From Corallium rubrum (Eukaryota > Cnidaria > Anthozoa > Scleralcyonacea > Coralliidae): a stretch of DNA of 64,000 nt. The position numbers and the translations under genes are program-made. The notes under the pieces were generated by a model. It had not been told where the DNA came from and did no database searches. It saw nothing but the letters and a program-made list of their open reading frames with translations. The first letter of the stretch is position 1, and every line of letters begins with the position of its first letter. Of the stretch, positions 285-330 are shown piece after piece. Location: assembly GCA_964035015.1 (NCBI GenBank), contig OZ035997.1, positions 24,501,334 through 24,565,333 on the forward strand, given 5' to 3'.

Positions 285-330
285 ACTACACTGATGAGGC
301 CCGAAAGGCCGAAACGGTATCGTCTGTAGT
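285..330 (+). ncRNA. Minimal type I hammerhead ribozyme
   Basis: All core parts are present in order. Stem I 5' strand ACTACA (285-290), CTGATGA (291-297), stem II GGCC/GGCC with loop CGAAA (298-310), GAAA (311-314). Stem III is the 3-bp ACG/CGT with loop GTAT (314-323), C at 324 is the predicted cleavage position (GUC), and TGTAGT (325-330) pairs perfectly with the 5' strand. The very short stem III is typical of metazoan hammerheads in Penelope-like elements and retrozymes, which act as dimers (known). (TA)n begins at 331, the base after stem I. Confidence 0.9.

Follow-up and report, generated by a model that had tools for sequence, protein, structure and literature searches.

What a hammerhead ribozyme is doing at the edge of a (TA)n microsatellite, next to pieces of Penelope-like elements (PLEs) on the opposite strand, is the question raised by the first bases of a 64,000-nucleotide stretch of the Corallium rubrum genome, referred to here as the window (assembly GCA_964035015.1, contig OZ035997.1, forward-strand positions 24,501,334 to 24,565,333; G000:C1:24501334-24565333 in our numbering of the 474-Mb genome). 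Judged from its letters and its genomic relatives, the ribozyme is the 3' part of an element that we call RZ-1, a non-coding, tandemly repeated metazoan retrozyme. We consider it likely (probability about 0.7) that RZ-1 is mobilised in trans by a PLE of the type named PLE-B below, with which it appears to share a start hairpin, the offset of the start from that hairpin and a TA target.

The ribozyme occupies positions 285-330 of the plus strand and reads ACTACA-CTGATGA-GGCC-CGAAA-GGCC-GAA-ACG-GTAT-CGT-C-TGTAGT, a type I hammerhead with canonical core (CUGAUGA...GAAA), a 6-bp stem I (ACTACA/TGTAGT), a 4-bp stem II (GGCC/GGCC, loop CGAAA), a 3-bp stem III (ACG/CGU, loop GUAU) and predicted cleavage at 324/325. 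The first-pass annotation had described a complete hammerhead with canonical core, paired stem I and 3-bp stem III, and our reading of the letters agrees. The core pattern CTGATGAN{6,30}CGAAAN{6,30}GTC matched the window once, at this ribozyme, with 0.14 matches expected; 11 of 100 shuffled windows held at least one match, so the core pattern alone is only modestly beyond chance. An Rfam scan of the window at gathering thresholds gave no hit, and a relaxed scan of positions 1-5000 returned HH9 at 22.7 bits (E 0.032; gathering score 52) together with many TA artefacts. The hammerhead fold of 285-330 was calculated at -10.4 kcal/mol versus a minimum free energy of -13.7 kcal/mol, a predicted competing fold thus being 3.3 kcal/mol more stable. 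Genome-wide, the specific pattern CTGATGAGNCCN{3,6}GGNCGAAACGGTANCGTC found 490 matches (249 and 241 on the two strands) against 0 in the reversed control; because of this difference the ribozyme lies beyond chance, and we regard it as confirmed. One regular expression picked out 23 distinct hammerheads in the fetched loci; 22 of them kept all four pairs of stem II, and 22 kept four or more of the six in stem I. A lack of other genomic copies with conserved stems, which the annotation had named as grounds for abandoning its reading, was thus not what the genome held. The annotation had expected poor cleavage by a single copy and good cleavage by a dimer; the commonest stem III in the genome, ACGGTACCGT, is self-complementary, making a dimer possible. 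Viral contigs scanned with the ribozyme pattern yielded 0 matches.

To describe the element around the ribozyme we mapped 74 distinct arrays in 70 loci, among the matches listed; the loci include 40 further stretches covering listed C1 pattern matches up to 87.5 Mb. As reference we took one real 231-nt monomer from a single locus (L008), numbered from the cleavage site, which has 49.4% GC and a longest open frame of 64 codons. BLAST of the window's own place (L031) against this monomer delimited a 5'-truncated RZ-1 copy at 202-332 on the plus strand, spanning monomer position 109 to 8 nt past the cleavage site. Copies often stand head to tail at a spacing of about 230 bp, and array length was at most one unit in 34 cases, between one and two units in 32 and more than two in 8. 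RZ-1 thus combines a type I hammerhead, tandem units within the 150-450 bp range, non-coding sequence and GC below 50%, the features of metazoan retrozymes. The earlier proposal of a separate, non-autonomous, ribozyme-bearing element therefore stands, whereas its third element of unknown kind turns out to be of a known one. A second retrozyme family, RZ-2, also has a hammerhead, twin hairpins and TA ends (L002, L027, L028, L042 and L056), its end being TGTAGATTGAACTA followed by (TA)n.

The clearest property of RZ-1 is where its copies stop. Sixty-seven of the 74 arrays end near the cleavage site (monomer 224-231 or 1-14), and a TA run follows directly in 66 of these 67, at least 12 nt long in 59 and 6-11 nt in 7; the sole near-site end without TA (L001) continues into other sequence. 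The exact end, TGTAGTTA directly before TATA, reaches 8 nt beyond the cleavage site, its final TA merging with the target tract; it was found in 47 of the 74 arrays, the window copy among them (325-332, plus strand), with others ending at +3, +4, +6, +7, +13, about +1, -4 and -5. The corresponding junction, CGAAACGGTANCGTCTGTAGTTATATATATA, occurs 233 times genome-wide against 0 in the control. By comparison, a TA run of at least 12 nt lies as close at 0.3% of positions in the window (4001-64000) and, in the loci, at 3.3% of positions at distances above 500 nt. The link between the element's 3' end and TA repeats, first suggested for this single copy, is borne out by these junctions, and the genomic copies, when checked for a following (TA)n as the annotation had advised, run into TA at nearly all near-site ends. 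A mid-monomer pattern, whose selection is independent of the 3' end, retrieved 28 arrays, 25 of which end near the cleavage site (25 of the 28 also belong to the set of 71 found by the ribozyme); because of this agreement the fixed end is no artefact of a ribozyme-based search.

The 5' ends of RZ-1 are scattered by comparison, and the 5' flank carries a TA run of at least 12 nt in 47 of the 74 arrays, a shorter one in 9 and less than 6 nt in 18. The window copy has (TA)n on both sides, at 141-202 and at 331-474, the latter a 3' flank common to RZ-1 on the plus strand and to the element PLE-A on the minus strand. Fixed 3' ends together with variable 5' ends are, on the sequence pattern, the hallmark of target-primed reverse transcription that begins at one set internal site. 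At 51 of the 74 ends the RNA offers a UA or AU with which a TA primer could pair (GUUA in 47, UGUA in 2, GGUA in 1 and GAUAU in 1). Because copies extend past the cleavage site, their template must have been uncut at that ribozyme.

RZ-1 has two hairpins, one immediately downstream of the start at monomer position 14 (hairpin 1, CGCUC-UAUGGCC-UUUA-GGUCAUA-UU-GAGC-G-CUC) and, 70 nt beyond it, another at position 84 (hairpin 2, CGCUC-ACUGC-UUGC-AGU-UU-GAGC-G-CUC), with the consensus Y-GCUC-stem-loop-UY-GAGC-R-CUC. The same pair is present in RZ-2 with different stem letters. The window copy is truncated at the last bases of hairpin 2, so that no hairpin remains in it. A rule of three upper-stem pairs plus a U[UC] bulge matched RZ-1 twice, the reversed 290 kb of loci not at all and none of 20,000 dinucleotide shuffles even once, a shuffle test that was not blind because the rule had been refined after PLE and retrozyme copies were seen. 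Upper-stem pairing is maintained while the letters change: across 17 families, 2 of which look spurious, 43 of 51 cells were paired (27.7 in shuffles), and in 43 distinct sequences among the matches listed the figure was 97 of 129 (71.4 in shuffles), with 0 of 10,000 shuffles as high in either comparison, counts that are not probabilities because many rows share ancestry. All three pairs were present in 27 of the 43 sequences, and none or one in 13, including hairpin-2 types CTTCATTG and similar; pair counts were computed in Python, MAFFT having misaligned the hairpin 5' arms. Genome-wide, a loose hairpin pattern matched 2,068 times versus 366 in the reversed sequence, and part of these matches is accordingly chance. 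The PLE-type half of the hairpin has (TA)6 20-50 nt downstream in 455 forward-strand cases (control 0), a count not scaled to the total of GGTATYGAGCRCTC sites; on the reverse strand, repeated matches at one site inflate the number.

The same arrangement is found in PLEs related to the window's own first bases. Positions 1-140 hold, on the minus strand, a reverse transcriptase (RT) fragment with the motif YRDDG, 5'-truncated at (TA)n. Searching the genome with its 47-aa product (P0001, from 1-141) returned 702 candidates, of which 150 matches were scored and some repeat in tandem with a spacing of about 2.4 kb, and relatives in this family, PLE-B, carry hammerhead cores and twin hairpins (L104-L106 and L107-L118). 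By eye, PLE-B proteins show YRDDG and a C-terminus of the form VVYQA...YVGLT, which we read as putative RT and GIY-YIG motifs. Twelve short stretches (L107-L118) were read behind PLE-B-type open reading frames (ORFs). Two of them (L107 and L115) have the order hammerhead, hairpin 1, hairpin 2, ATG, and in a third (L118) the stretch itself ends after hammerhead and hairpin 1. Three stop at (TA)n just 5' of hairpin 1 (L109, L110 and L116), where the related L108 and L113 continue into the hairpin; L108, L113 and L117, and also L105, L032, L017, L063 and L089, end at (TA)n behind hairpin 1. In L111, L112 and L114 (TA)n is reached before any hairpin, with no template for comparison. These copy ends suggest two internal start sites in PLE-B. 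The distance from start to hairpin, read by eye, is about 5 nt in RZ-1, 4 in RZ-2 and 3-8 in PLEs, the last from the few ends where a related copy shows the template. In start hairpin, offset and target alike, RZ-1 appears to fit PLE-B. The first-pass annotation had kept the neighbouring PLE pieces apart from the ribozyme element, a separation that probably holds for the intact-looking PLE-A but not for the RT fragment at 1-140, whose family shares the twin hairpins by type.

PLE-A itself is a partial tandem at 473-3805 on the minus strand, with pseudo-long terminal repeat (pLTR) direct repeats at 473-1021 and 3258-3805 (99.3% identical) and (TA)n on both sides, the tract at its truncated 5' end occupying 3806-3954. 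Its open frame (911-3394, minus strand; 827 aa stop to stop) has an RVT_1 domain (E 3.2e-8) and a GIY-YIG-like C-terminus; on the C-terminal piece the Pfam GIY-YIG match had E 0.024, below the curated cut-off, and it was absent from the whole-ORF listing. Pattern searches found minimal PLE-type hammerhead cores in pLTR copy 2 (596-630, minus) and pLTR copy 1 (3381-3415, minus). PLE-A is thus Penelope-like by its RT domain, its pLTR partial tandem and the hammerhead core in the pLTR. We dropped it as a candidate partner of RZ-1: no GCUC/GAGC hairpin was found in the window by the rule or by a looser one, and a different hairpin lies behind the PLE-A end, so that PLE-A is probably not the partner. 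That other hairpin (3208-3235; ACTTGCGA/TCGCAAGT; bulge of 2 nt), which lies 3' of where PLE-A ends, is perhaps PLE-A's counterpart of the start hairpin. A PLE-A-like copy at 54862-55936 is 65.8% identical to 1113-2209 in inverse orientation and has its own minimal hammerhead core at 55936 (plus); this core and the two on the minus strand (630 to 596 and 3415 to 3381) had gone unmentioned in the annotation. PLE 3' ends before (TA)n (L018, L032, L104 and PLE-A near 473) often show GTCT about 10 nt upstream, like the GUC-U of the ribozyme, a resemblance that may be chance.

Some retrozyme copies adjoin PLEs directly. In L046 and L058, read by eye, the 5' end of a retrozyme is joined, in the same orientation and without TA, to a PLE whose 3' end lies behind hairpin 1, by template jump or nested insertion. 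Head-to-head joins of RZ-1 and a truncated PLE were seen by eye in L002 and L035, as expected if both DNA strands were nicked and primed. We rejected such fusions as proof of joint reverse transcription, since a nested insertion at a PLE-TA border looks alike. In a systematic test, PLE protein matches were found in 6 of 74 near flanks (the window's own place included) and in 6 of 73 distant flanks.

We hypothesize that tandem RZ-1 copies are transcribed, and that the hammerhead would cut the transcript into 231-nt units to be ligated into circles. A PLE protein, whose binding we infer, would recognise the twin hairpins at unit positions 14 and 84 and nick a (TA)n tract, whose TA 3' end, paired to UA of the RNA, would prime reverse transcription a few nucleotides ahead of hairpin 1, within the 3' strand of ribozyme stem I. 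A polymerase travelling anything from a fraction of a turn to several turns would then leave 5'-truncated monomers or head-to-tail arrays. Such a system may also be active at present. In its broadest form it would make the hammerhead plus twin GCUC/GAGC hairpins an entry ticket for a PLE reverse transcriptase, through which any circular RNA bearing the module is copied, starting at a fixed internal site, into TA repeats; animal retrozymes would live off PLEs in SINE-like fashion, and PLEs in general would owe their two starts and optional tail to the twin hairpins. For this wider claim we consider the case evenly poised.

The uncut template was a circle or an unprocessed multimer, and we infer the circular form. 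Identical units are expected because one circle would be read several times, and full units within one array were indeed identical in 12 of 13 pairs, all from only three arrays (two differences in the remaining pair), whereas different arrays were a median of 7 edits apart. Such identity would also arise from a homogeneous source array, and it does not separate circle from multimer. An uncleaved linear multimer transcript, with a ribozyme that plays no role in integration, is the somewhat doubtful but serious competitor here: starts lie beyond the cleavage site, hammerhead mutants of the Anolis PLE insert normally with unprocessed RNA as the main in vitro substrate, according to the accessible text of PMC11167929, and overlapping parts of the 34 arrays longer than 251 nt differ by at least 2 bases in 22. 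Against it, PMC7229834 reports that RNA extracts contained circular forms of a coral retrozyme.

In a rival reading the 3' (TA)n is no pre-existing target, and the reverse transcriptase would make or expand it at the start, by UA slippage or telomerase-like addition, which would account for TA runs of at least 12 nt being commoner on the 3' side (59 of 74) than on the 5' side (47 of 74), and for the several 5' junctions that adjoin DNA without TA. We think this unlikely: in those 47 arrays the 5' flank holds TA as well, a single tract in the window borders two distinct elements (RZ-1 and PLE-A), (TA)n without a recognised neighbouring element exists in the window (35913-35986), and units inside arrays are joined without TA. 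Less likely still is that RZ-1 descends from a PLE leader, has kept hammerhead and hairpins, and is now moved by other machinery such as a TA-targeting long interspersed nuclear element (LINE). Hairpins alone are no proof of present use, and LINEs or PLEs are named as possible helpers in the discussion of PMC7229834, as far as that text was accessible; yet RZ-1 ends match PLE ends in the kind of target and lie at a similar offset from the hairpin (TA-targeting LINEs were not searched), and compensatory change preserves the hairpin stems. Spread at the DNA level, as satellite-like repeats recombining between TA tracts, would produce head-to-tail arrays with frequent TA flanks, but recombination would not be expected to leave dispersed copies that share one 3' end while their 5' ends vary, and we judge this explanation very improbable.

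Several observations weigh against mobilisation by PLE-B as proposed, besides the non-blind hairpin rule and the shared ancestry noted above. Seven of the 74 arrays end elsewhere (L016, L038, L041, L045, L061, L065 and one of L069), with TA after none of them; only three of these ends (76, 76 and 71) lie 8-13 nt 5' of hairpin 2, so that support for a second start site within RZ-1 itself is weak. Nine ends (+3, +6 and +7) have no more than one base in common with a TA primer, and 27 of 74 arrays have no 5' TA run of 12 nt or more, so that plain insertion into a TA tract does not account for every array. In the overlap comparison, only 12 of the 34 arrays showed 0-1 mismatch, the ungapped method merging indels with divergence. 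A Pfam search of PLE-B returned no RT and no GIY-YIG hit, a PDB profile search gave nothing useful, and hhalign of PLE-B with PLE-A was weak (E 0.016, probability 2.9%). Finally, several hairpin types and PLE families carry the start module, so that the exact partner is not singled out.

The remainder of the window includes a 1198-aa open frame at 42305-45901 (minus strand) with zinc knuckle, integrase and RVT_2, a Copia-type LTR (long terminal repeat) retrotransposon; a satellite of 28 bp at 32075-35188 (111 copies, 92% matches); and a (ACA)217 tract of 652 bp at 7198-7849 (100% matches).

As a kind of element, the metazoan retrozyme is already known. According to the accessible parts of PMC7229834 (Cervera and de la Pena 2020), retrozymes of Acropora millepora have 220-240 bp units, type I hammerheads and linear and circular RNA, and a cloned genomic monomer of a coral retrozyme cleaved efficiently (kobs about 0.8 per min), with a ribozyme that may differ from that of RZ-1. 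RZ-1 resembles them in its type I hammerhead, its unit length of 231 nt, its range from dimers to multimers and its lack of an ORF of note; unlike RZ-1, they are given no TA target, fixed start or PLE-shared hairpin in those parts, where the words microsatellite, TA repeat and target site do not occur. The partner of animal retrozymes is stated as unknown, with PLEs a strong candidate, in the available text of PMC7229834, PMC7761336 and PMC11722881. Our literature search found no account of a retrozyme TA target, fixed start or PLE-shared hairpin, which is no proof of novelty with most subscription papers outside its scope. The twin hairpin, fixed start and TA target are signals that make the partner question directly assayable, and they also offer a sequence basis for two internal PLE starts, for the PLE tail and for the joint occurrence of retrozymes and PLEs. 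Should the proposal hold, circle-templated insertion would have a small model in a minimal RNA, roughly 230 nt long, that is written into TA repeats.

Pairs of short and long interspersed nuclear elements (SINEs and LINEs) share a 3' tail, the non-coding element borrowing an enzyme by copying its RNA entry signal. In RZ-1 the entry signal would sit not at an RNA 3' end but downstream of a start inside a circular or tandem template, and the enzyme would come from a PLE, not a LINE. A TA microsatellite target is also used by MuTAnT (PMC4486113, as far as available), a plant Mutator-like DNA transposon whose mechanism is unrelated to that of RZ-1, and simple AT-rich targets are said to be favoured by Penelope elements in the accessible part of PMC3846280. 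The nearest parallel is the Anolis PLE Poseidon PAc, for which the available text of PMC11167929 describes reverse transcription from two adjacent internal sites, preference for AT-rich DNA, a requirement for RNA 3' of the start and dispensable ribozyme cleavage; no non-autonomous client is described there. PAc starts in an AC-rich stem-loop, whereas the C. rubrum elements would start 5' of GCUC/GAGC hairpins and target (TA)n. With a hammerhead near the ORF start, two adjacent internal starts, an AT-rich target and an optional tail between the starts in common, the twin-hairpin geometry of RZ-1 and the PLEs fits closely with the start pattern of the Anolis element.
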